From NCBI GenBank assembly GCA_013289795.1, contig JABCZH010000003.1:62001-126000 (forward strand): DNA of 64,000 nt, read 5' to 3'. The translations under genes were made by a program, and so were the position numbers. The first letter of the stretch is position 1. Each line of letters starts with the position of its first letter. Of the stretch, positions 1-20,604 are shown in pieces. The notes under the pieces are model-generated. The model saw only the letters and a program-made list of their open reading frames with translations, ran no database searches and was not told the DNA's origin. Origin of the DNA: Acidobacteriota bacterium. GTDB lineage: Bacteria; Acidobacteriota; Terriglobia; Terriglobales; Acidobacteriaceae.

Positions 1-2349
1 CTTCATGTCGAGGAAATAGCTGCTTGCCACACGCGCCATCACGAACCCGAATGCCGCGCCTGCAAAGACGCCGGCCGCAGCCATGACCACGCCTTCTCCG
101 ATCACACCGCGCAGAAGATCCCGTGGTTGCGATCCCAGCGCCAGCCGGATACCGAATTCGCGCGTCCGCGAACTGACCGAAAACGCCAGCACGCCGGCGA
201 CGCCAACCAAGGCAATCGACAACGCCACGGCCGCGAACACGCCAAACACCAGCGAGTTCAAACGGTCCGGTGTAAGCACTTCCGCGCGGATGTCTTCGAG
301 AGTGGCGGCATGCTCAATGGGCTGGTCGACTGACATGTCGCGAATAATCCGCGTGACCGGCGTGACCAGCGAATAAGGATCTACATCGGTATGGATGAAA
401 AGGCGACCGCCAAACATTGGCCCTTCTTCAAAGGAGCTATAGATGGTTACGATGGGCTCGGGAACGACGTGTTGGTCGTCAATATCGGCGGTGACGCCGA
501 TGATGCGGTGCGGTGCGGCGCTAATCCCCGGAACGAATTTCAGCACGGGATCCGTCCAATAGACATGCCGATTGATGGCATCCTGATTGGGGAACATACG
601 CTGTGCGAGCGTCTCACTGATGATGACGACGGGATCTTTATCTTTATTTTGGCCGTCGAGGTCGTTGAAATCGCGGCCAGCGACGATGGGAACGCCGAGC
701 GCGGCAAAGAATCCGGGAGAGATGACACGCCACTGCGCGCGAGGATCCTCTTCGCCCACAGCATGAGCATGACCGTCGGCGGAGAATTGCAGCCCGACGC
801 CTGCAGCGGCATCGCGCCAGGGAACCATCAGACCGAAAGCGGTCTTTTGCACGCCGGGTAGCGCATCCACGCGGCGAATCGATTCCTTGTAGAAGTCGAG
901 CACTTGCTGCGGTGTTTTTCCGTAGGACATCGCGGGGACGTTGATGGCAAGGACGTGGCGGGTATCGAGGCCTGTCCGCGCGTTTTGCAGTGCGATCAGC
1001 GTAGTGATCAACATGCTGGCGCCGGCCAGCAGCACGAAGGATGCAGCGATTTGTGTTATGGCAAAGACCCGCTGGCGGCGGCTCGTGCTGCCGGTAATCC
1101 GTACACTGCCGCTCGCCAGGCTAAGGCCACTGGCGGTATCAGCCGACGGCAGCCGCGGGACGAACGCCAGAATCACTGCCGCCACGAGGGCCAGCGCGGC
1201 TCCGAGCCACAGCAGGCTGGAATCGACTGTCAGGTCGAGTGCGCGGACGGAAAAGCGTGAGGCGTAGCGGGCCAGGATCGCCACCATCGGGTACGCGCTG
1301 ATTACGCCCAGAGCAGCGCCGGCGCTGCAAAGCAGAAGGCTTTCGGCCAGCAGCATGCGGCGTAGCGCTCCGTTGCTGGCGCCAAGCGCCGCACGGATGG
1401 TCAGCTCGCCTTCTCGACGAACTGTGCGTGTGAGAATCAGGTTGGCGACGTTGCAACACGCGATGACGAAGACCAGTACTGAAGCCGCGAGCAGCACCAG
1501 CAATACGGTCCGGGCACCCGAAGTTATCTCCTCGTGGAACAGCTTTGCCCCGATCTGGAAGTTCGCTTTGGGCGAATAGTCTGCGGGATGTTCCTTCACC
1601 ATGGCTCCGTAGACGGAGCGCAACTCAGCGCGAGCTTGATCGAGCGTGGCGCCGGGAGCGAGGCGACCGAAGAGTTCCGTCATGCGATGGACACGGCCGG
1701 TCACCATGGTGGCGGACATGTGGTGCGGGCTGGTGACGACATTGGCGATGATTTCGGTGTCTTGGGGATAGGGGACGCAGGGTTCGAGCACGCCGATGAC
1801 CGTGGCAGACCGATTGCCAAGGACACCGACATCAAGGCGAACAGACTTGCCGACGACCGAAGGGTCTTTCTTAAAAGTGGTGGTCCAGAAACGATATGTG
1901 AGAACGACGACGCCGGCAGCGCTGGGGCCATCGTCTTGCGGTCCAATGAGACGACCGAGGACTGGGTGAAGGCCCATAACATCGAAGTAGTTGCCGCCGA
2001 CGACGCCGGCTTGAACTTCGCGAGGCTGACCCAGGCCCATCATGGTGAAACCGACGGTCGAGAAATCGCCGAACGCGCTCAGGGTCTTAACCCTGCCGCG
2101 CAAATCCTGGATTTCGGGCACGGAGAAGGCTGTGTTGGCGTCACCGAGTCCAGGGGCACTCTGGCGGATATAGATCAGCCGGTCCTCATCGCGATTAACG
2201 AGCGGTTTGAGGAGCACGCCGCGCACCAGCGTGAAGATGGCAGAGTTGGCGCCGATGCCCAGCGCCAGCGTCAGCACCACGGTGAGCGCAAGCCCTTTGG
2301 TTCGACGCAGCGAGCGGAATGCAACTTTCAGATCGTTAACGAATGCCAT
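1..2349 (-). CDS. ABC transporter permease, MacB/FtsX family (3' end outside window)
   Basis: The frame is open for 783 codons from ATG at 2349 to the window edge, so the C-terminal end is missing. Directly after the start comes a first membrane segment (residues about 19-39), then a MacB periplasmic core-like region. A central cluster of FtsX transmembrane helices follows, a second periplasmic region, and a final helix block (VFGVFAAVALSIALVGVAG) near the edge. This is the duplicated MacB_PCD-FtsX layout of the large Acidobacteriota permeases (ADOP). Unlike the copy at 22737-25391 it starts directly with the MacB core, without the N-terminal helical extension, and no PadR gene is seen upstream. 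By family it should be an inner-membrane part of a MacB-like exporter or mechanotransmission complex. The substrate cannot be told. Confidence 0.9.
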   Translation of the reverse strand, partial: MAFVNDLKVAFRSLRRTKGLALTVVLTLALGIGANSAIFTLVRGVLLKPLVNRDEDRLIYIRQSAPGLGDANTAFSVPEIQDLRGRVKTLSAFGDFSTVGFTMMGLGQPREVQAGVVGGNYFDVMGLHPVLGRLIGPQDDGPSAAGVVVLTYRFWTTTFKKDPSVVGKSVRLDVGVLGNRSATVIGVLEPCVPYPQDTEIIANVVTSPHHMSATMVTGRVHRMTELFGRLAPGATLDQARAELRSVYGAMVKEHPADYSPKANFQIGAKLFHEEITSGARTVLLVLLAASVLVFVIACCNVANLILTRTVRREGELTIRAALGASNGALRRMLLAESLLLCSAGAALGVISAYPMVAILARYASRFSVRALDLTVDSSLLWLGAALALVAAVILAFVPRLPSADTASGLSLASGSVRITGSTSRRQRVFAITQIAASFVLLAGASMLITTLIALQNARTGLDTRHVLAINVPAMSYGKTPQQVLDFYKESIRRVDALPGVQKTAFGLMVPWRDAAAGVGLQFSADGHAHAVGEEDPRAQWRVISPGFFAALGVPIVAGRDFNDLDGQNKDKDPVVIISETLAQRMFPNQDAINRHVYWTDPVLKFVPGISAAPHRIIGVTADIDDQHVVPEPIVTIYSSFEEGPMFGGRLFIHTDVDPYSLVTPVTRIIRDMSVDQPIEHAATLEDIRAEVLTPDRLNSLVFGVFAAVALSIALVGVAGVLAFSVSSRTREFGIRLALGSQPRDLLRGVIGEGVVMAAAGVFAGAAFGFVMARVASSYFLDMK

Positions 2350-2461: not shown

Positions 2462-2865
2462 TCATCGCGAGGTATCTTTTTGGCGTCGCCGCCGTTGGCT
2501 TGCTCTTATGATTTCGTTAAAATCCGCCGCTGGACGTATCTCGAAAACGCTGCCGTACTTCAGGGCCGGATGCTGCGCGATGAGCTGTACAGCATGATTC
2601 ATGTCCCGCGCCTCAAGGACGAGAATGCCACCGAGTTGTTCCTTGGTTTCCGCATAGGGACCGTCCGTAGTTGCGACTTTGCCGTTCTTCCAATACAGGG
2701 TCAAGGCATTTTCCGCAGGCTGAAGCGCTTCTCCCCGGCAAAATGCCCGTTGGCGCGAAGATGGTCGTCATATTCAAAGCAAGCGTCGAACATCGCGTGT
2801 TGCTCGCCCTCGGTCATGCCATCGACTTTGCCTTTGTCGTAGTACCCCAAACAAATGTATTTCAT
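2462..2865 (-). pseudogene. DGPF/YCII-domain protein, broken by a 1-base frameshift
   Basis: The ATG at 2865 has a strong AGGAGG site just upstream. The reading frame matches the intact paralogue at 7643-8044 for about 45 residues, then shifts. The paralogue reads CTCCGCCGGC on the + strand where this copy reads CTCCCCGGC (around 2731-2739), a one-base loss. After the shift the second frame continues with TDGPYAETKEQLGG and the paralogue's C terminus. Total length is 404 nt, one short of 135 codons. DGPF proteins are small cytoplasmic alpha/beta proteins of unknown reaction, typically under ECF42 sigma control. An ECF42-type promoter lies upstream at 2925-2950. The gene could be a recent pseudogene or a sequencing error. 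Confidence 0.85.
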
Positions 2866-2924: not shown

Positions 2925-2950
2925 GTCGTTCGGGAGGGCAAAAATCGACA
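2925..2950 (-). promoter_or_regulatory. Predicted ECF42-type promoter for the DGPF gene at 2865
   Basis: Reading the minus strand, TGTCGA (2950-2945) is followed after exactly 16 bases by CGAC (2928-2925), then TATC. The same motif and spacing occur at 8619-8644 and 12065-12090, each upstream of a DGPF gene. The published ECF42 promoter consensus, as I recall it, has TGTCGA at -35 and CGA(C/T) at -10. Confidence 0.75.
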
Positions 2951-5905: not shown

Positions 5906-6460
5906 TCACTGTTTCAAGTAACGAAGCGCAACACTTCCTGACTTAAAAGTTTTCGATTCAACAAGTTTTAATTGCAATTTCTCCGGCAGGTTGACACCTT
6001 CCATCAACCGTTTCCCTGCGCCAGCAATGATTGGCATAATGACAAGACGATATTCGTCAACCAGGCCAAGCTTTATAAGCTGTGAAGGAATATCTACACC
6101 ACCGACCAGAATATCTTTGCCTGGTTCTTGCTTCAGTTTAAGTATTTCATCGTGAAGGTTGGTACGAACAATTCTCGTCTTTTTTCCTTCGACGCTATCC
6201 AAGGATCGCGAGAAGACAAGATGTTTCTTGGAGTCAAATGCTTGACCAAATTCTTTGTCTGATTTTGTCGAGGAAGGGTCTTTTGCGACATCAGGCCAAT
6301 AAGGAACCATCAATTGATAGGTTTTTCGGCCACAGACGAGAAGATCAACATCTCGCAGGAGCTGCATGTAATATTCAAATGCTTCTTCATCGGGATTGAA
6401 CTTGGTATGGTCACAGCAGCCGTCCAGGGTAAGGTTGATTGCGTAGATTACATTTCTCAT
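5906..6460 (-). CDS. Dihydrofolate reductase/RibD C-terminal family protein
   Basis: A 184-residue protein beginning MRNVIYAINLTLDGCCDH, typical of the YwjB/YyaP branch of the RibD C-terminal fold. It has DLLVCGRKTYQLM (cofactor-contacting GRxTY motif), HLVFSRSL, and DILVGGVDIPSQLIKLGLVDEYRL before the terminal strands. A longer in-frame extension to 6865 exists but is antisense to the esterase gene and has no domain, so ATG 6460 was chosen. It likely reduces a pteridine or flavin-like substrate with NADPH, substrate unknown. It lies 68 bases after the esterase gene and may be the last gene of the DGPF operon. It looks AT-richer than its neighbours. Confidence 0.88.
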   Translation of the reverse strand: MRNVIYAINLTLDGCCDHTKFNPDEEAFEYYMQLLRDVDLLVCGRKTYQLMVPYWPDVAKDPSSTKSDKEFGQAFDSKKHLVFSRSLDSVEGKKTRIVRTNLHDEILKLKQEPGKDILVGGVDIPSQLIKLGLVDEYRLVIMPIIAGAGKRLMEGVNLPEKLQLKLVESKTFKSGSVALRYLKQ

Positions 6461-6528
6461 TGGATTGTTTTTTTTATGCTTGTCCTTTCTTACGTGCCAG
6501 CGCCTATGCGCCCTTTGGACGATTCGGT

Positions 6529-7614
6529 CTAGCGACCTTCCGTTCCGAATGCTTTGCGCAGCGCAGACTTCCAACTCGCGCTGAATTGTTTGGAGACTTC
6601 GGCGTCCGGCACGAGGAGATCGAATCCGTGGAAAGCACCGCGCACGACCAGGAGTTCGATTGCGACTCCGGCGTGGACGAGCCGGCGCGCGTACTCCATG
6701 TCTTCTTCGGCGAACAGGTCGAGAGCACCGACGCCGATCCAGGCAGGCGGCAGGCCGGCCACGCTGGCTACCCGGGCGGGTACAGCGGCTACCGGCACCT
6801 TGGACGAACCCGCTGGAACACCGAGCAGCGAGCTCCAGGCAAAACGATTGGCACTCGGAGTCCACATAAAGTGGCCAACGGCGGGCGGCGCTGGGTGGGA
6901 GCTGCCCGTTCGGTCGTCTAGCGCGGGGTAGATGAGCAGCTGGAAGCAGATGGGAACGTCGTCTTTATTGCGGTCGCGCGCGTGAATGGCAAGGCTCGCG
7001 GCGTGGGTGCCGCCCGCGCTCTCACCGCCCACGGCAATCCGGGAGCGATCAATGCCGAGCTCCGCTGCATGGGCATGGACCCATTTGAGCGCGGCGTAAT
7101 TGTCCTCAAGCGCGCCGGGATAGCGCGTCTCCGGAGCCAGCCGGTAGTCAACCGAGACGACGACGCAATGGCAATCCGTCGCGATCCCCTGCAGCATGGG
7201 CATCCACCCGGGACCGATCATCATGAAGCCGCCGCCATGCATGTGAAGCAACAACGGCTTGTTCTTCTCCGACGGCGCAGGATCAACCACCCACAGACGA
7301 ACCTCGGGTGCTCCTGGCGGCCCGGGGATATGCCGCTCCACGGGCTGCGGCGCGGGCGCAGGTAACGGGGGCGTGCCGGGCAATTGCCGAAACTTGCCGA
7401 CCATCTCCGCTGAGAGGTCAAAGGCGGGGAACTGCTTGAGCATAGGAAGAAGTTCCGGATCGACGAGGGAATACGGATCTGCAATCGCCGGCGAAGGTTC
7501 TGAGCGCGAGGCTTGCTTAGCCCCGGCCAGCGTAGCAGCAGGCGCGAGCCCCATAGCCAGACCAAGGCCCGCGGTGCGGATAGCGAAGTCGCGACGAGTA
7601 AGTTGATTGCTCAC
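6529..7614 (-). CDS. Tat-exported alpha/beta hydrolase (hormone-sensitive lipase family)
   Basis: A 361-residue protein. The N terminus (TRRDFAIRTAGLGLAMGLAP) is a twin-arginine signal. The mature part has the HGGG oxyanion motif (HMHGGGFMM, about residue 124), the nucleophile elbow GESAGG (about residue 193), the acid in GALDLFAEED and the histidine in GAFHGFD. These are hallmarks of HSL/GDXG esterases, which act on short acyl esters. The gene follows the DGPF gene at 7643 by only 28 bases in the same direction. It is therefore probably transcribed from the ECF42-type promoter at 8619-8644. Exact substrate unknown. Confidence 0.92.
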   Translation of the reverse strand: MSNQLTRRDFAIRTAGLGLAMGLAPAATLAGAKQASRSEPSPAIADPYSLVDPELLPMLKQFPAFDLSAEMVGKFRQLPGTPPLPAPAPQPVERHIPGPPGAPEVRLWVVDPAPSEKNKPLLLHMHGGGFMMIGPGWMPMLQGIATDCHCVVVSVDYRLAPETRYPGALEDNYAALKWVHAHAAELGIDRSRIAVGGESAGGTHAASLAIHARDRNKDDVPICFQLLIYPALDDRTGSSHPAPPAVGHFMWTPSANRFAWSSLLGVPAGSSKVPVAAVPARVASVAGLPPAWIGVGALDLFAEEDMEYARRLVHAGVAIELLVVRGAFHGFDLLVPDAEVSKQFSASWKSALRKAFGTEGR

Positions 7615-7642: not shown

Positions 7643-8044
7643 TCAGCGTGCAGTTTTCTGTCGCCGTCGCTGCTCGCTTGCCTTCATGATTTCGTTCATG
7701 TCCCCGGCGGGCCGAATCTCCCAAAGGGTGCCGTACTTCAGGGCCGGATGCTGGCTGATGAGCTGTACAGCATGATTCACGTCCCTCGCCTCAAGGACGA
7801 GAATACCGCCGAGCTGTTCTTTGGTTTCGGCATAGGGGCCATCGGTCGTTGCCACCTTGCCGTTCTTCCAATAGAGCGTCAGGGCGGTTTCCGGTCCCTG
7901 AAGCGCTTCTCCGCCGGCCCAGTGCCCGCTTGCGCGAAGGTGGTCGTCATATTCAAAGCATTTATCGAACATGGCGTTTCGCTCAGCCTCAGCCATGCCA
8001 TCGAATTTGCCTTTGTCGTAGTAGCCAAAACAGATGTATTTCAT
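7643..8044 (-). CDS. DGPF/YCII-domain protein (intact paralogue)
   Basis: 133 residues starting MKYICFGYYDKGKFDGM, with the signature TDGPYAETKEQLGG near residue 70 that gives the DGPF family its name. The ATG at 8044 is chosen over the upstream in-frame start because AGGAGAG lies six bases before it. It is a close homologue of the frameshifted gene at 2462-2865. DGPF proteins are small cytoplasmic proteins co-occurring with ECF42 sigma factors; no reaction has been assigned. It is the second gene of a likely operon behind 8172-8528. Confidence 0.93.
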   Translation of the reverse strand: MKYICFGYYDKGKFDGMAEAERNAMFDKCFEYDDHLRASGHWAGGEALQGPETALTLYWKNGKVATTDGPYAETKEQLGGILVLEARDVNHAVQLISQHPALKYGTLWEIRPAGDMNEIMKASEQRRRQKTAR

Positions 8045-8171: not shown

Positions 8172-8528
8172 TTATTCCGGAGCCGGGTAGAAAAGAAGCT
8201 CGCGCACCTCGCCCACCGCATCGCAGGAGACGGCGCCCTTGGTCGCCCACGCCAGTGCCTCGTCCATATTGGCGGCTTCCAGTATCCAAAAACCGCCCAT
8301 GTGCTCCTTGGTCTCGGTGTATGGCCCGTCGGTGACGAGCACCTTGCCGTTGGATTGCTTCCGCACCGTCTTTGCGTTGGCGGCCGGGGAAATGCCGCAG
8401 GCGAACTTTCTTATGCCGGCAGCAATCATTTCGCGGTTGAGCGCGTGGATCTCTTCCATCATCGCTTCGGTTACGGTGGACGGGTCGAAGTCGTCGGGGA
8501 GGTAGTTACAAACTAGATATTGTGACAT
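8172..8528 (-). CDS. DGPF/YCII-domain protein
   Basis: 118 residues with TDGPYTETKEHMGG in the middle and the flanking pattern GKVLV...GFWILEAANMDEALAWA typical of the family. AAGGAG lies eight bases before the ATG at 8528. It is the promoter-proximal gene of the run 8528 to 5906 (DGPF, DGPF, esterase, RibD-like reductase). The ECF42-type promoter at 8619-8644 lies about 90 bases upstream. It diverges clearly from the paralogue at 7643-8044, so this is not a recent tandem copy. Confidence 0.93.
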   Translation of the reverse strand: MSQYLVCNYLPDDFDPSTVTEAMMEEIHALNREMIAAGIRKFACGISPAANAKTVRKQSNGKVLVTDGPYTETKEHMGGFWILEAANMDEALAWATKGAVSCDAVGEVRELLFYPAPE

Positions 8529-8618: not shown

Positions 8619-8644
8619 GTCGTCGGGGAGAGGGAAACTCGACA
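8619..8644 (-). promoter_or_regulatory. Predicted ECF42-type promoter of the DGPF-esterase-RibD operon
   Basis: On the minus strand TGTCGA (8644-8639) is followed after 16 bases by CGAC (8622-8619) and TATAGG. Motif and spacing equal those at 2925-2950 and 12065-12090. Confidence 0.75.
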
Positions 8645-8657
8645 GCTATTCCAATTT

Positions 8658-8728
8658 TTATTTTAGCTGCCGAGTCCGCGCTTGCAGCAACTGCCGCCCT
8701 GGTTCCCGTTGGGTCAGCGCCAGCGCTT
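8658..8728 (-). pseudogene. 3' relic of an ECF42 sigma factor gene
   Basis: The minus strand encodes ALALTQREPGRQLLQARTRQLK followed by TAA. This aligns with the last residues of the intact sigma factor at 19291-20604 (ALALTQQEPERQFLQERIRQLK), 16 of 22 identical. Upstream of it the similarity stops and a DUF5615 gene ends 15 bases away. The rest of the sigma gene is gone. Its position just upstream of the ECF42-type promoter at 8619 suggests that this DGPF locus once had its own sigma factor. Confidence 0.8.
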
Positions 8729-8742
8729 GGGAAACCGGCACT

Positions 8743-9123
8743 CTAGCCGGGAGGAAGTGTTCGAACGTCAAAACGCCCAACTCCATTGATCTCAATAAGC
8801 TTATTGAGCAAGAAATCCTGTTCTCCCGAACTCCTCACGTGTTCAACGACCGGCCTGATCCGATCCCACTGCTCATCGCGAGTCAGGCCGCTTTCGCGCA
8901 ACACGATCAATCCCGGATGCGCTTCGACATCGAGCAACGGAATGAAGTCTCGCGCATTCGTGGTGACAACTGCAAAATCGTGATCCAGCGCGTACTTCCA
9001 GATCTCGCGATCAGAGCGCCCCAACAAACCGACGTGCGGCACCGACTGAGCGTACACACCCATGCCGGCAAGTCTGCCGACCAACGCCGGCGAGACATTC
9101 TCGTCCAGCAGTAGATGGGTCAC
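8743..9123 (-). CDS. DUF5615 PIN-like toxin
   Basis: 126 residues starting THLLLDENVSPALVGRL after a GTG start, with HVGLLGRSDREIWKYALDHDFAVVTTNARDF following. This is the pattern of DUF5615 (Mut7-C/PIN-like RNase) proteins, with conserved acidic residues DEN, D in SDREIW, and N/D in TTNARDF. The GTG overlaps the TAG stop of the upstream DUF433 gene by one base, implying translational coupling. By family the protein is the presumed toxic RNase of a type II toxin-antitoxin pair. Confidence 0.88.
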   Translation of the reverse strand: MTHLLLDENVSPALVGRLAGMGVYAQSVPHVGLLGRSDREIWKYALDHDFAVVTTNARDFIPLLDVEAHPGLIVLRESGLTRDEQWDRIRPVVEHVRSSGEQDFLLNKLIEINGVGRFDVRTLPPG

Positions 9124-9737
9124 TATGCAACCCCATGCTCCCTCTTGAACGCGAGGCGCTTCCTGGGTCGTCCTGGCTTCTCTCCAAAGCGCGCCACCAG
9201 CCGGGCGTACGCGAAATCACGATCACCGAGAGCCGGAAAATCTTCAGCGATCTCACTCTCGGGAACACCCTTCCGATACAGCGACGCCACGAGTTGAAGG
9301 GGAACTCGCGTTCCACGAAAAATCGGTTCTCCACCTAGGATTTCTGGGGACGACACAATACGGCGCCTGCCCCATCGATAGGCCGCCAGATTTCGAGCCA
9401 CGGTCTGCCGAAACGACTTGCACTCGACCGAAACCTGCATATCCCCCGACCGATAGACTAAATCCGATCCCTTTCTGGACCATCGCGCCGCCTTACGGTC
9501 TCCACGCGACAAAATCTTCGCCAGAGACTGCTTGTCTTCCTTGCTGAGCGGGAAGGGGAACTCGACCAGCACCTTCACAAAGAGTACGTCGCCAACGGAA
9601 AACCGATAACGCACCGCATTGCCGGTCTTCCGTTTGAATGACGGAGCCATCGACTTCTTTTCCAGCGCGGTACGAATGGTGTCGGGGGGCACCTCAGCGA
9701 TCGCCGCCGCCTCGTTTACTGAGAACGCTTCCAGCAT
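9123..9737 (-). CDS. DUF433 antitoxin with N-terminal helix-turn-helix
   Basis: A 204-residue protein. Residues about 1-35 (FSVNEAAAIAEVPPDTIRTALEKK) look like a MerR-type winged helix-turn-helix. A middle domain of unknown type follows (FPFPLSKEDKQSLAKIL, VSVECKSFRQTVARNLAAY). The C-terminal DUF433 domain has SSPEILGGEPIFRGTRVPLQLVASLYRKGVPESEIAEDFPAL, with the classic GxP-I-GTR-P motif. The start at 9737 is preferred to the upstream GTG (9809), which would lie across the palindrome. This VapB45-like architecture should neutralise the DUF5615 partner and autoregulate through the palindrome at 9751-9781. Confidence 0.85.
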   Translation of the reverse strand: MLEAFSVNEAAAIAEVPPDTIRTALEKKSMAPSFKRKTGNAVRYRFSVGDVLFVKVLVEFPFPLSKEDKQSLAKILSRGDRKAARWSRKGSDLVYRSGDMQVSVECKSFRQTVARNLAAYRWGRRRIVSSPEILGGEPIFRGTRVPLQLVASLYRKGVPESEIAEDFPALGDRDFAYARLVARFGEKPGRPRKRLAFKREHGVA

Positions 9738-9750
9738 AGCTACCTCTGGC

Positions 9751-9781
9751 GTAAATATACCACCATAGGTGGCGTATTTAC
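9751..9781. promoter_or_regulatory. Palindromic operator of the DUF433/DUF5615 pair
   Basis: Arms GTAAATATACCACC and GGTGGCGTATTTAC match at 12 of 14 positions around the centre ATA, ending 13 bases before the antitoxin start. Size and place fit an autoregulatory antitoxin operator (inference). Confidence 0.6.
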
Positions 9782-9827
9782 AAGCGGGGTGCGTCCCGTC
9801 TGTCCCCACATCCGCTCGGTTTTCGTC

Positions 9828-11480: not shown

Positions 11481-11921
11481 TTACTTCCTGCCCACCTCGC
11501 CGCCCATCTCGACGTAGACGTCGTCGCCGAACTTCTCTTGGATATACTTTTGAGTCTCAGGATCGAAGTCGGTTAGGTCAAACATGCGGCGAACTTCGAC
11601 CATTTCGTCATCTTTTCCGGGGATGCGCGCGGCCCATTCGAGCGCCTCTTCGCGCGACTTCACCTGGATGATCCAGTAGCCGCCGACCACTTCCTTGGTT
11701 TCGGTAAACGGACCGTCGGTCACTTTCGATTTTCCGTTCTTGAAGGTGACGCGCGCGCTCATGGTCGCGGGCGGGGTCAGCCCGTCGAGCGCGACCAGCA
11801 GGCCGGCTTTCCCTAGTTCCTCGTTGTACTTGCCCATTGCCTCCATGTTTATGAGGTCGGGTACCCAGCCGGGTTTGGCGGTTTTGTAGATTTTCGGAAA
11901 CATGATCATCATGAAGCGCAT
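11481..11921 (-). CDS. DGPF/YCII-domain protein
   Basis: A 146-residue protein starting MRFMMIMFPKIYK, with the signature TDGPFTETKEVVGG and then YWIIQVKSREEALEWAARIP. The ATG at 11921 is chosen because AAGGAG lies seven bases upstream; the much longer open frame to 12704 crosses the divergent MBL gene and its promoter. It is longer than the other DGPF proteins by a C-terminal tail (DPETQKYIQEKFGDDVY). It is under a predicted ECF42-type promoter at 12065-12090. The gap 11370-11480 holds another GGGGACAG-type repeat and no gene. Confidence 0.92.
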   Translation of the reverse strand: MRFMMIMFPKIYKTAKPGWVPDLINMEAMGKYNEELGKAGLLVALDGLTPPATMSARVTFKNGKSKVTDGPFTETKEVVGGYWIIQVKSREEALEWAARIPGKDDEMVEVRRMFDLTDFDPETQKYIQEKFGDDVYVEMGGEVGRK

Positions 11922-12064: not shown

Positions 12065-12090
12065 GTCGAACGGAGTGGCGGAAATCGACA
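12065..12090 (-). promoter_or_regulatory. Predicted ECF42-type promoter of the DGPF gene at 11921
   Basis: On the minus strand TGTCGA (12090-12085) is followed after 16 bases by CGAC (12068-12065) and TAG. This is the third occurrence of the same motif and spacing upstream of a DGPF gene in this window. Confidence 0.72.
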
Positions 12091-15826: not shown

Positions 15827-16240
15827 CTAAGACCCCCAAGGATTGAGCACGGCTACTCCCGTGTGCCCAAAGTCGGCTGTATTCCGGGTCACGACGGTCA
15901 GGCCGTGCACGAGGGCGGTGGCTGCGATGAGGGCGTCACGATCGGAGCGAGGATTGGGTACGTGAAACGTCGCGCATCGCTGGGCGACGGCGGTGTCAAT
16001 CGCCAGGATACGACCGGAGAATGCGGGCAACACGTGACCATCCATCCACGCTCGCAGGATCGAGCCTTGCTCTTTGTCGCGCCGGTCGATAAGGAGGATT
16101 CCTATCTCCAATTCCAGCACCGAAATGACAGAGATGTAGAGATTCGCCGAGGGTAAGGGCTCAGCCCATTTCTTGACGTTGGGATGCGTCTTTCTGGCTT
16201 TTCTTAATTCTGAAATGACGTTGGTATCGAGCAGGTACAT
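15827..16240 (-). CDS. vapC: VapC-type PIN-domain toxin
   Basis: A 137-residue PIN protein: MYLLDTNVISELRK (first Asp), ISVISVLELEIGI (Glu), DRDALIAATALVHGLTVVTRNTADF (later Asp cluster). All four conserved acidic positions are present. The ATG overlaps the antitoxin stop (TGATG). By family it is a ribonuclease inhibiting translation when freed from its antitoxin. Confidence 0.94.
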   Translation of the reverse strand: MYLLDTNVISELRKARKTHPNVKKWAEPLPSANLYISVISVLELEIGILLIDRRDKEQGSILRAWMDGHVLPAFSGRILAIDTAVAQRCATFHVPNPRSDRDALIAATALVHGLTVVTRNTADFGHTGVAVLNPWGS

Positions 16241-16696: not shown

Positions 16697-17713
16697 ATGA
16701 AAGTCGGTGTGCTGGTACGTAGGAATTCCAGAAACGTCGATGGCGTCATCCGGGCCGCAAACATTGCCAACCGCCTCCAGCCGGATTTTGAGTTTGAGGT
16801 TAAGCAGGTCGGCTGGCTCCAAAAAGGGAACGGCGAACTCAGGCCCAAAGATGTTGTGCAGAGAGTGAAGGAGAAGCACGCTGGCAAGCACTTGATAGTC
16901 GTAATCTCTCCGCCCCTGGTGGGAGATTATCTCGACTACGCACGCCGTGGGATGAACATAGTGTCCACGGCCGATTGGGACAGCCGTTTCGCACCGCCTC
17001 CTCTCGCGATTTACGTCCTATTTCAGTTCGCCGACGCGGCGGCGTCATTTGTTGCGGACCTATCTCCGCGCCAGGTTCATAGGCGGATGCGCCACAATGG
17101 GTTCCGAGCATGCATCTTCAACTCCACAGAAGGACGGCGGAGGTTTCTGTCTGTTCTAATCGCAGGCTATATCTGTGCGGATTGTCGAGCACGACTGCGC
17201 GAAGGGGGGGTGTCGGACGCGCAATTGGACTCCATCGGACACCTACTCTCCTACGTGCGGGATTTCACCATTGACAAACCGCGTTATATGCCGAACGCAG
17301 TCTTTATTGGACATGGGAGGCGGGCGGATTGGGAGAAGATCAGGAACCACATTTCGAAGAAACACCGTCTTAAGGTGGAAGAGTTTAATGTGTCTCCGCC
17401 TGCCGGCTTCACCACGGTCGAACGACTCGCAGAGATGCTTGAGAGCGCTTCGTTTGCCATACTCGTGATGACCGCAGAAGACAGGCAAAAGAACGGTAAG
17501 CGTAACGCACGGCAGAATGTAGTTCACGAAATCGGCCTCTTTCAGGGAAGACTCGGATTCCCACGCGCAATTGTCGTAAAGGAAGACGGCGTGGAGGAGT
17601 TTTCCAACATAAGGGGATTGACCTACATACATTTCAAGGGGGGCAAGATCGATGATGCGCTCGCTGAGATCGACAGGGTTTTGATCCGCGAGCACGTGAT
17701 CCCAGCAAGCTAA
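16697..17713 (+). CDS. TIR-like nucleotide-binding protein with novel N-terminal domain
   Basis: A 338-residue protein. Residues about 195-330 match the predicted nucleotide-binding TIR-like domain (PF10137 class). NAVFIGHGRRADWEKIRNHI opens it, FTTVERLAEMLESASFAILVMTAED follows, and RQNVVHEIGLFQGRLGF carries the conserved Glu-x-Gly-x-x-x-Gly block. The N-terminal 190 residues contain NIVSTADW, then HRRMRHNGFRACIFN...GYICADCRARL, a CxxC segment recalling archaemetzincin-like proteins that lost HExxH; this part is not assigned to a family. No membrane segment is visible. TIR-like domains of this class are NAD-degrading or cyclic-nucleotide-sensing effectors in antiphage systems. A DUF2971 gene follows after 23 bases. 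Confidence 0.75.
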   Translation: MKVGVLVRRNSRNVDGVIRAANIANRLQPDFEFEVKQVGWLQKGNGELRPKDVVQRVKEKHAGKHLIVVISPPLVGDYLDYARRGMNIVSTADWDSRFAPPPLAIYVLFQFADAAASFVADLSPRQVHRRMRHNGFRACIFNSTEGRRRFLSVLIAGYICADCRARLREGGVSDAQLDSIGHLLSYVRDFTIDKPRYMPNAVFIGHGRRADWEKIRNHISKKHRLKVEEFNVSPPAGFTTVERLAEMLESASFAILVMTAEDRQKNGKRNARQNVVHEIGLFQGRLGFPRAIVVKEDGVEEFSNIRGLTYIHFKGGKIDDALAEIDRVLIREHVIPAS

Positions 17714-17736
17714 AATCACAGGGGGCTGGCCCAGCC

Positions 17737-18705
17737 ATGTACGGAGTTACGGAGATAGGTACCTGCACCTTGAATTTGAAGCACTCCATTTTGAACGACG
17801 TTTTCTCATGCAAGCCAAAGAACCCCCTATATCACTACACGACACAGGCGGGGCTTCTGGGGATCATAAAGGATCGTCAGATCTGGGCTACCCACACGCA
17901 GTACCTAAATGACCGCCGAGAATTCTTACATGCAGTAGACCTAGTCCGTGGGGAGATTCAGAGATTTCTTGACGAGCGCAACACAGGACAGGAAGCAGCG
18001 TCCGCGGTGCGCGTCGAGGCCCTCAATCGAATGCGTGAAATGTTATTGATGTCGCCCGAGCACATTAATGTATGCGTTTGCTCATTCTCCGAGGACAGCG
18101 ATTCGCTTTCTCAATGGCGCGCGTATGGTGGCTCATCTGGTTTTGCCATCGGCTTTTCTCCCGAGGTCTTAGAGGCCGCAGTTGAAAAGCAGAAGTTCTT
18201 TTTAGCACAATGCATTTACGATCCTAAAACTCAGCAAGATATCGTGCGCGCCTTGGTGGAAGAAATTCTGGAGGAGCACCTTGCAAAAAATCCGGTCACC
18301 GAGGACAAGGAATCCGACGAGGTATTCTGGAAGACAGGTGGAAACCTCTTAAATTACCTTTATCAGTACGCTCCGATATTGAAGGATCAGTCCTTTGCGG
18401 AAGAACGAGAATGGAGAATCATTTCACTGCCAATTTTCGCGCAACACCTTGACTACCGTGAGGGGCGGTCTTTGATCATTCCGTATTACCGGTTGCCACT
18501 GTGGGAAGAAGGGCAGAAAACAGAAATATCCGAGATAATAGTTGGCCCAACGCGAGATGTGGAGCGATCAATAAAGTCGGTAAGTAGATTGATCAAGGGC
18601 CGCAACGTCATCACGGGCCGACACTTGAAGGGGCTGGACTTGATCAAGGACGGATGGGGTTTTACTCCCATTAAGGCCTCGCAAGTTCCTTATCGCGATT
18701 GGTAG
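17737..18705 (+). CDS. DUF2971 family protein
   Basis: A 322-residue protein. NPLYHYTTQAGLLGIIKDRQIWATH and YLNDRREF open the domain. VCVCSFSEDSDSLSQWRAYGG, then GFAIGF near residue 145, and FAEEREWRII near residue 225 are the conserved blocks of DUF2971. The family has an ART/RNase-like look (H-Y-T, S-QWR-Y, E-EWR) but no established activity. The gene starts 23 bases after the TIR-like gene and is closed by a terminator hairpin, so the two probably form an operon. Its weak start region has no clear ribosome site; coupling to the upstream gene is likely. Confidence 0.88.
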   Translation: MYGVTEIGTCTLNLKHSILNDVFSCKPKNPLYHYTTQAGLLGIIKDRQIWATHTQYLNDRREFLHAVDLVRGEIQRFLDERNTGQEAASAVRVEALNRMREMLLMSPEHINVCVCSFSEDSDSLSQWRAYGGSSGFAIGFSPEVLEAAVEKQKFFLAQCIYDPKTQQDIVRALVEEILEEHLAKNPVTEDKESDEVFWKTGGNLLNYLYQYAPILKDQSFAEEREWRIISLPIFAQHLDYREGRSLIIPYYRLPLWEEGQKTEISEIIVGPTRDVERSIKSVSRLIKGRNVITGRHLKGLDLIKDGWGFTPIKASQVPYRDW

Positions 18706-19290: not shown

Positions 19291-20604
19291 TTATTTCAGC
19301 TGCCGAATCCGCTCTTGCAGGAATTGCCGCTCTGGTTCCTGTTGGGTCAGCGCCAGCGCCTTCTCATAAGACGCACGGGCCTCTGCCGTCCTGCCGAGCC
19401 TGCGGTACATATCCGCGCGGGCGGAATGCGCCAGGTAGTAATTTGCCAATTCGCCATGTTGCAACGCCGCGTCGATCTGCGCCAGACCGGCCTCTGGACC
19501 ATCGCACATTGCAATCGCCACGGCACGATTGAGCTGTACCACTGGCGAAGGCTGAATTCGTAGCAGTTGGTCGTAAAGCGCGACAATCTGCCGCCAGTCG
19601 GTCGCAGCGGTCGATTCCGCCCGGGCATGAACGGCCGCAATCGCAGCCTGGAGTGTGTAAGCGCCGAAGCGGCGGGACTTCAGAGCTTTCTCCAGCAGTG
19701 CCACTCCCTCGGCGATCTGCTCCTTGTTCCAGAACCCGCGGTCTTGATTCTCCAGCAAAATCATCTCTCCGGCCGGAGATGTTCTGGCGGCGCGGCGAGA
19801 TTCCTGTAGCAACATCAGGGCAAGCAGCCCCATCACTTCCGGACCCATGAGTTCCGTCTCTGGCTGGAGTTCGGCCAGCAACCGGCCCAGTCGAATCGCC
19901 TCGCCGGTTAGCTCGGCCCGGGTTACCTCCGCTCCCGCCGCAGCCGAATAACCCTCATTAAAGACGAGATAGATGACGTGAAGCACCGCGCCCAGCCGCT
20001 CCGGCAATTCCTGCGGCGTCGGCACCTCGTAGGGAATTGCCTTATCGCGGATGACAGCCTTCGCGCGCACGATGCGCTGCGCCAGCGTGCGTGGAGTGGT
20101 GAGGAAGGCCTTGGCTATCTCCTCGGTGGTCAGTCCGCACACCTCACGCAAGGTCAGCGCCACGCGCGCTTCCGGCGGCAGCGATGGATGACAGCAGGTA
20201 AAAATCAGGCGCAGCCGGTCGTCTTCAAGCGAGTCATCCTCAAGACCGTTTTCTTCATCGGACCTTTCCGCCGAAATCGATTGCGCTTCGAGATGTCGCG
20301 CGAGTTCCTCTTGAGAGGCATCAAATCTTGCCCGTCGACGCAGAGTGTCAACGGCTTTGAACCGGGCCGTTGAAATCAACCATGGCCGCGGGTTATCGGG
20401 CACTCCATTCTTCGGCCACAGGCTCAGCGCAGCCGCAAAGGCTTCGTGCATGGCCTCCTCGGCAATATCAAAATCACCGAGCAAGCGAATCAGAGTAGCC
20501 AGGATTCGTCCCGAATCCACGCGATAAAGGGAGTCGAGCAATTCGCGTACCTGCTGGCTGGAAGGCCCGGACATGGCACGCCCGGACATGACGCGCTCAG
20601 ACAT
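19291..20604 (-). CDS. ECF42-type RNA polymerase sigma factor with C-terminal TPR extension
   Basis: A 437-residue protein. Region 2 is LGDFDIAEEAMHEAFAAAL (about residues 43-61) with NPRPWLISTARFKAVD, region 4 is LTLREVCGLTTEEIAKAFL. A long extension follows: IYLVFNEGYSA (DUF6596 signature), then helical TPR-like repeats ending NYYLAHSARADMYRRLGRTAEARASYEKALAL. This architecture defines ECF42 (formerly SigJ-like or RpoE-like 'sigma factor with C-terminal SnoaL/TPR'). No anti-sigma factor is encoded nearby, as usual for this group, in which the extension is thought to control activity. AAGG lies eight bases before the ATG. Its likely targets are the TGTCGA-N16-CGAC promoters at 2925, 8619 and 12065. 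Confidence 0.93.
   Translation of the reverse strand: MSERVMSGRAMSGPSSQQVRELLDSLYRVDSGRILATLIRLLGDFDIAEEAMHEAFAAALSLWPKNGVPDNPRPWLISTARFKAVDTLRRRARFDASQEELARHLEAQSISAERSDEENGLEDDSLEDDRLRLIFTCCHPSLPPEARVALTLREVCGLTTEEIAKAFLTTPRTLAQRIVRAKAVIRDKAIPYEVPTPQELPERLGAVLHVIYLVFNEGYSAAAGAEVTRAELTGEAIRLGRLLAELQPETELMGPEVMGLLALMLLQESRRAARTSPAGEMILLENQDRGFWNKEQIAEGVALLEKALKSRRFGAYTLQAAIAAVHARAESTAATDWRQIVALYDQLLRIQPSPVVQLNRAVAIAMCDGPEAGLAQIDAALQHGELANYYLAHSARADMYRRLGRTAEARASYEKALALTQQEPERQFLQERIRQLK

Follow-up and report, generated by a model that had tools for sequence, protein, structure and literature searches.

Three TGTCGA-N16-CGAC sites ahead of DGPF genes in an Acidobacteriota genome are very likely promoters of an ECF42 sigma factor

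The question raised by this locus is whether three near-identical short sequences, each ahead of a gene for a DGPF (YCII) protein, are promoters of an alternative sigma factor of the ECF42 group. ECF42 sigma factors are widespread, and we know of no established signal for them or role for the DGPF proteins. In Streptomyces venezuelae, a 2018 study by Liu, Pinto and Mascher reportedly found ECF42 to have DGPF targets, a TPR extension, and a -35 box TGTCGA with a -10 box CGA/TC; the sigma gene is said to be co-transcribed with a DGPF gene from this motif, and a sigma gene under its own target promoter was reportedly described for some ECF42 members only. The DNA analysed here, called the window, is a 64-kb stretch, and a preliminary description of it had proposed three promoters with the same boxes, an N16 spacing and a shared TA after CGAC, each upstream of a DGPF gene on the same strand. 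A pattern search recovered all three, and a same-strand DGPF gene follows each of them (Table 1). An ECF42 sigma factor, most likely the product of 19291-20604, very likely recognises the sites as promoters, with TGTCGA as the -35 and CGACTA as the -10 box, and drives three separate units from them.

Table 1. Features of the window discussed in the text, in positional order.
Feature	Position	Strand	Evidence	Remark
MacB/FtsX-type permease gene	1..2349	-	783-codon open frame; Pfam MacB_PCD 2.3e-30, FtsX 1.2e-20	follows DGPF gene 1; continues past the window edge
DGPF (YCII) gene 1	2507..2865	-	paralogue of 7643-8044 with 1-nt frameshift; two overlapping HMM fragments	ATG at 2865
Site 1	2925..2950	-	TGTCGA-N16-CGAC then TA	59 nt from ATG of DGPF gene 1
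RibD C-terminal-domain (reductase-like) protein	5906..6468	-	Pfam RibD_C 6.9e-15	start not fixed
Alpha/beta hydrolase	6529..7614	-	Pfam Abhydrolase_3 3.8e-53	probably also in the site-2 unit
DGPF gene 3 (type A)	7643..8044	-	Pfam YCII 1.3e-17	second gene after site 2
DGPF gene 2 (type B)	8172..8528	-	Pfam YCII 1.5e-12	ATG at 8528
Site 2	8619..8644	-	TGTCGA-N16-CGAC then TA	90 nt from ATG of DGPF gene 2
Relic of ECF42 3' end	8656..8726	-	64/71 nt identical to intact gene	just before site 2
DGPF gene 4 (type C)	11481..11921	-	Pfam YCII 6.2e-18	ATG at 11921
Site 3	12065..12090	-	TGTCGA-N16-CGAC then TA	143 nt from ATG of DGPF gene 4
ECF42 sigma factor gene	19291..20604	-	437 aa; Pfam sigma r2, sigma r4, DUF6596, weak TPR	

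A search of the whole window for TGTCGA-N16-CGAC gives exactly three matches, all on the minus strand; shuffled versions of the window contain a mean of 0.17 matches, and three were reached in none of 100 shuffles. The orientation of the sites with the genes and their short distance to the start codons fit promoters. Homology to relatives ends about 20 bp upstream of site 3 (blastn), and around site 1 it ends at the -35 box in most matches and at 2985 in locus L065.

Four DGPF genes lie within 18 kb of the window, and the three intact proteins have Pfam YCII matches. A one-base frameshift, seen in alignments with its paralogue (gene 3) and with L070, splits DGPF gene 1 into two HMM fragments that lie in different frames. 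The permease gene behind it has a homologue downstream of a DGPF gene in L064, L070, L071 and L179 (blastn, 75-85%). The gene order suggests that the unit behind site 2 consists of two DGPF genes, the hydrolase and the RibD-like protein; DGPF gene 3 has no motif of its own in the 330 nt upstream. DNA homologous to the hydrolase gene occurs in L062, L065 and L075 (blastn), and the RibD-like gene, probably the last of the unit, contains a stretch conserved in L061, L062, L063, L097, L098 and L181.

The sigma gene, reported as intact in the preliminary description, is borne out by its domains: Sigma70_r2 and Sigma70_r4_2, the sigma domains of ECF42, and DUF6596 all score above the Pfam cut-off. 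The C-terminal extension, described as required for activity in the group, holds DUF6596 at residues 203-307 (3.2e-34) and matches to TPR models at 391-426, with E-values down to 9e-6 yet below the curated cut-offs. The protein thus has the TPR-rich C-terminal extension of about 200 residues and the DGPF/YCII gene neighbourhood of the group, together with candidate target promoters that have TGTCGA and CGA(T)C-type boxes. ECF42 loci are characterised by the lack of a nearby anti-sigma gene; the searched neighbours of this gene encode a glyoxalase and a protein with no Pfam match, small unannotated genes being still possible. There is no motif in the 600 nt upstream of the gene or in the 3 kb past its stop codon, and the nearest site is 7 kb away. 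The roughly 7 kb between the sigma gene and site 3 hold other genes, for metallo-beta-lactamase fold, short-chain dehydrogenase, hydrolase, DJ-1-like, PIN, TIR-type, DUF2971 and glyoxalase proteins. Among these, the PIN-domain protein is encoded at 15827-16240 on the minus strand, and a CAP12/Pycsar-type TIR-domain protein followed by the DUF2971 protein at 16697-18705 on the plus strand, possibly a small defence module.

The preliminary description had set a genome-wide scan as the check on its claim, with random frequency of the motif counting against it. Across the 4.67 Mb of the genome (33 contigs), the bare TGTCGA-N16-CGAC motif has 12 matches and the reversed pattern 11, which is background, and the bare motif was rejected as genome-wide evidence; the claim survives the scan only when TA is added, as the extended motif has three matches, every one in the window, and TA follows none of the nine other bare sites. 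The 12 bare sites also include three within 350 nt upstream of the seven YCII matches of the genome, where 0.003 would be expected (Poisson P ~5e-9). Of the nine other bare sites, eight fall inside stop-to-stop frames that are 239 aa or longer and the ninth inside one of 136 aa, but a long surrounding frame was abandoned as a criterion for real sites: it separates poorly because site 3 itself lies inside a 409-aa stop-to-stop frame. Looser patterns gave 40 genome matches against 34 reversed for N16-17 with CGWC, and 174 against 88 for N14-18. With N16-17, CGWC and TA there are four matches against two reversed, and the fourth (L055:2696; N17, CGTC) precedes a small gene, a DGPF gene and an ECF42 gene.

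Four of the seven YCII matches are in the window, and the genome has three ECF42 genes, the two besides the window gene being located on contigs C4 and C6. In the C4 unit the site is of the form N17-CGTCTA, and upstream of the C6 DGPF gene stands, as judged by eye, a TGTCGA-N17-CGAT-like sequence; both are unlike the window sites. On contig C10, a TGTCGA-N17-CGACA site stands a short way upstream of the start of an orphan DGPF gene. The same contig (L057) carries a pair of perfect TGTCGA-N16-TCGACA inverted repeats at 2315-2342 and 2718-2745, separated by about 400 bp, the second of them shortly before the orphan gene.

For comparison with other ECF42 loci, genome contigs were scanned with the sigma protein, and the best 80 of 212 relatives were kept; these are 56-89% identical in the best segment, and 45 of the 80 are from Acidobacteriota, the others from cyanobacteria, planctomycetes, Nitrospira relatives, proteobacteria and more. 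Relatives that are 82-89% identical come nearly all from Acidobacteriota. Together with the window and three stretches of its own genome, the loci make 84 sequences, of which 72 have at least one DGPF match. Upstream of 141 DGPF domain matches in these sequences there are 48 sites at N16 and 42 at N17, and the reversed upstream sequences yield none at either spacing. Other spacings gave 13 sites at N13, one at N14 and one at N18, with five at N18 in the reversed control; the N13 'sites' were discarded, since most or all of them are the same sites read a second time via CGACGAC or an overlap like it. When CGAC or CGTC plus a TA-like pair is scored and repeated loci are removed (L170-L178, L180 and L184, which repeat DNA of earlier loci and are still in the class tallies below), a site on the same strand precedes 87 of 143 DGPF matches and one on the opposite strand a single match, that site being symmetric. 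No exact site lies upstream of the remaining 56 matches, some of which stand second in a unit.

Each window site has counterparts before orthologous genes, where types A, B and C are defined by at least 50% identity to the window gene. Those of site 1, before type A genes of relatives, end in ...CCCGAACGACTATCTGAT or similar, those of site 2, before type B genes, in ...ACGACTATAGGAC or similar, and those of site 3, before type C genes in L062, L064, L075, L084 and L181, resemble ATCGCGTGTCGATT...GTTCGACTAGTAAGT. With some repeated loci counted, a site is present upstream of 36/55 type A, 38/42 type B and 11/13 type C matches, and of 12/25 more distant A or C matches. For matches nearest the C10, C4 or C6 DGPF genes the count is 9/31, and 5/24 for the C6-like class. 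Three loci with an ECF42 gene 84-85% identical (L060, L073 and L078) have neither motif nor DGPF gene in a flank of at most 10 kb. The enrichment of the motif, its orientation with the DGPF genes and the counterparts before orthologues argue that the sites are ECF42-type promoters. As a separate observation, the type C DGPF gene is preceded in L062, L064 and L084 by two motifs in tandem, spaced about 108 bp apart, of which the window keeps only the nearer one.

The two spacings differ in the bases ahead of the -10 box: AA or GA precedes CGAC in 38/47 N16 sites and TT in 7/47, and TT precedes it in 29/44 N17 sites. Both spacings occur together in six loci, and therefore one sigma factor probably reads both. 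An automatic choice of the first ORF after 95 sites returned 74 DGPF genes, 16 others, three sites without an ORF and two at an edge; 74 is a lower bound, since the automatic choice mislabels DGPF genes in L061, L084 and L086. For eight sites with no DGPF gene directly behind, the targets were searched against Pfam and proved to be glyoxalase-fold (L107, L112 and L138), SnoaL-like (L114 and L134), DUF1579 (L110) and RibD_C (L098) proteins and a protein with no Pfam match (L062), suggesting that glyoxalase-fold, SnoaL-like, DUF1579 and RibD_C genes are wider ECF42 targets.

In 200 genomes of the order, TGTCGA-N16/17-CGACTA is present in 65 of 108 genomes with ECF42 and in 18 of 92 without (Fisher P 5e-9, uncorrected for kinship and genome size), with 131 and 23 sites respectively. 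The reversed pattern is commoner than the motif in both groups (167 sites with ECF42, 120 without) and was rejected as an order-wide background control; only the comparison of genomes with and without ECF42 is therefore informative over this set. The preliminary description had envisaged a regulon of separately promoted DGPF units rather than a single operon, a prediction that gains support from the enrichment and orientation of the motif before DGPF genes, its co-occurrence with ECF42 and the orthologous counterparts.

The position of the sigma gene relative to the motif was also compared. Among the 72 ECF42 genes with enough sequence downstream, the motif starts within 60 nt past the stop codon in 39, most often at 13 nt, within 200 nt in 51 and within 3 kb in 60; the window gene is one of the 12 with no motif in the 3 kb past the stop. 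The 600 nt upstream of the ECF42 start hold no motif in any of 76 genes, so that in this set no sigma gene was seen to be under a target promoter of its own, a trait not treated here as defining. With the motif often after the sigma stop codon and absent from the 600 nt upstream, the sigma gene of this ECF42 branch commonly stands ahead of the target unit and not within it. In three Pseudomonas loci (L123, L131 and L134), a same-strand DGPF gene lies upstream of the sigma gene and the motif further upstream. The window retains a trace of the common order: the relic before site 2 keeps the reading frame and the TAA with which the intact ECF42 gene ends, and in L059 an ECF42 gene stands directly ahead of a site-2-type promoter, with a 90% match over tail, promoter and gene. 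An ECF42 copy therefore formerly stood ahead of site 2; it may have been the present sigma gene before a relocation, or a duplicate that has disappeared.

Several other readings of the sites were weighed. That they are chance matches is extremely improbable: the background frequency of the bare motif in the genome would permit it, but the TA-extended form is confined to the window, the clustering of three of the 12 sites before YCII genes has the very low Poisson P given above, and the counterparts of all three before orthologous genes elsewhere mean that conservation already contradicts chance. The sites could also serve a dimeric repressor as operators: TGTCGA ... TTCGACTA forms a partial inverted repeat, and the TT before CGACTA at site 3 and at many N17 sites (rarely at N16), as well as the perfect repeats on C10, agree with this. 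AA or GA before CGAC at sites 1 and 2, as at most N16 sites, breaks the symmetry, however, the sites are oriented with the gene 87 times against one, and a one-base variation in spacing is usual for promoters; an operator function was rejected on orientation and asymmetry and is very unlikely.

If the sites are ECF42-type promoters, they might still be read mainly by the C4 or the C6 protein, with the targets of the window gene elsewhere. Three ECF42 genes in one genome and a sigma gene that is adjacent to no site, 7 kb from the nearest, speak for this, and either paralogue could in principle read the sites. Against it, in many relatives ECF42 genes 82-88% identical to the window gene stand ahead of, and on one strand with, promoters of these types and DGPF orthologues, and the sites of the C4 and C6 units differ from those of the window, which makes this alternative quite unlikely. 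With two other ECF42 genes present, the assignment of the sites to the product of 19291-20604 rests on the gene order in relatives, and this protein is most likely the one that would read them.

The observed positions, conservation, orientation, co-occurrence, gene order and relic suggest a scheme of which binding, transcription start, unit extents and signal are the predicted parts. The sigma factor would become active, probably through its C-terminal TPR extension as can be inferred from the literature, and RNA polymerase carrying it would start at all three sites. Transcription from site 1 would reach the frameshifted DGPF gene 1 and perhaps the permease gene behind it, that from site 2 the DGPF 2 - DGPF 3 - hydrolase - RibD-like unit, and that from site 3 DGPF gene 4. 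Many related loci have the sigma gene directly upstream of such a promoter and not driven by it; in the window, rearrangements have separated the two, leaving an ECF42 3'-end fragment before site 2. One alternative sigma factor very probably turns on several small DGPF-protein units simultaneously, and the four DGPF genes behind three near-identical promoters, with a hydrolase, a RibD-like enzyme and a permease, form a compact predicted regulon. Overall, the locus very probably represents a familiar type of bacterial regulation in which the gene order has been rearranged locally.

The system resembles ECF42 as reported for S. venezuelae in its DGPF targets, TPR-extended sigma protein, and TGTCGA and CGA/TC boxes. 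It differs in that the Streptomyces sigma gene is reportedly co-transcribed with a DGPF gene, whereas at many loci here the motif follows the sigma gene; the order sigma gene - promoter - DGPF, with the sigma gene outside the target unit, suggests a control logic unlike that of the reportedly autoregulated Streptomyces operons. The Pseudomonas loci share an ECF42 gene with a DGPF gene nearby but differ in that the latter precedes the sigma gene in the same orientation. According to PMC6180224, RpoE10 of S. meliloti, an ECF42 protein, acts at TGTCGG...CGTC promoters and has glyoxalase-like genes among its targets, which is similar to the system here, and did not activate its own operon. In the same study, its target operon SMc01149-SMc01148 is numbered next to rpoE10 (SMc01150), and the YCII-related neighbour SMc01151 lies upstream, is expected to share a transcript with the sigma gene and showed no induction, whereas DGPF genes are the main predicted targets here. 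In PMC8999054, ECF42 proteins with a TPR extension are described as thought to act through protein interaction, and S. venezuelae ECF42 members are named there; ECF-10 of Pseudomonas putida is mentioned in PMC8999054 and PMC6180224, and the ECF42 group in PMC8103513 and PMC10880074. A literature search, whose coverage missed most subscription papers, returned no title on ECF42 arrays in Acidobacteriota.

Sigma-gene tails were also sought at other loci. Of 118 sites, 46 follow an ECF42 gene matching to its end and 72 do not, and a tail was found at eight of these 72. The tails in L103 and L107 were rejected, as the ECF42 match there merely ended short of the cut, leaving six; the match is only 26-43 nt in three of them (L070, L127 and L181), and longer tails of 83-87 nt precede sites in L072 and L084. 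As background, a tail was matched by 20 of 3000 random stretches drawn from these loci, a count in which true ECF42 ends are included. What the displaced sigma gene and the tail relic add to the known regulation is modest. It is conceivable, though rather doubtful, that arrays grow by duplication or splitting off of a unit of sigma 3' end, promoter and DGPF gene, so that new DGPF genes carry a promoter and a scrap of sigma gene; the tails before sites in the window, L072, L084, L070, L127 and L181 would then be scars, and the sigma factor the hub of a growing set of small target units with no autoregulation. Directly upstream of the ECF42 relic, at 8743-9809 on the minus strand, the window also carries a toxin-antitoxin-like DUF5615/DUF433 pair.
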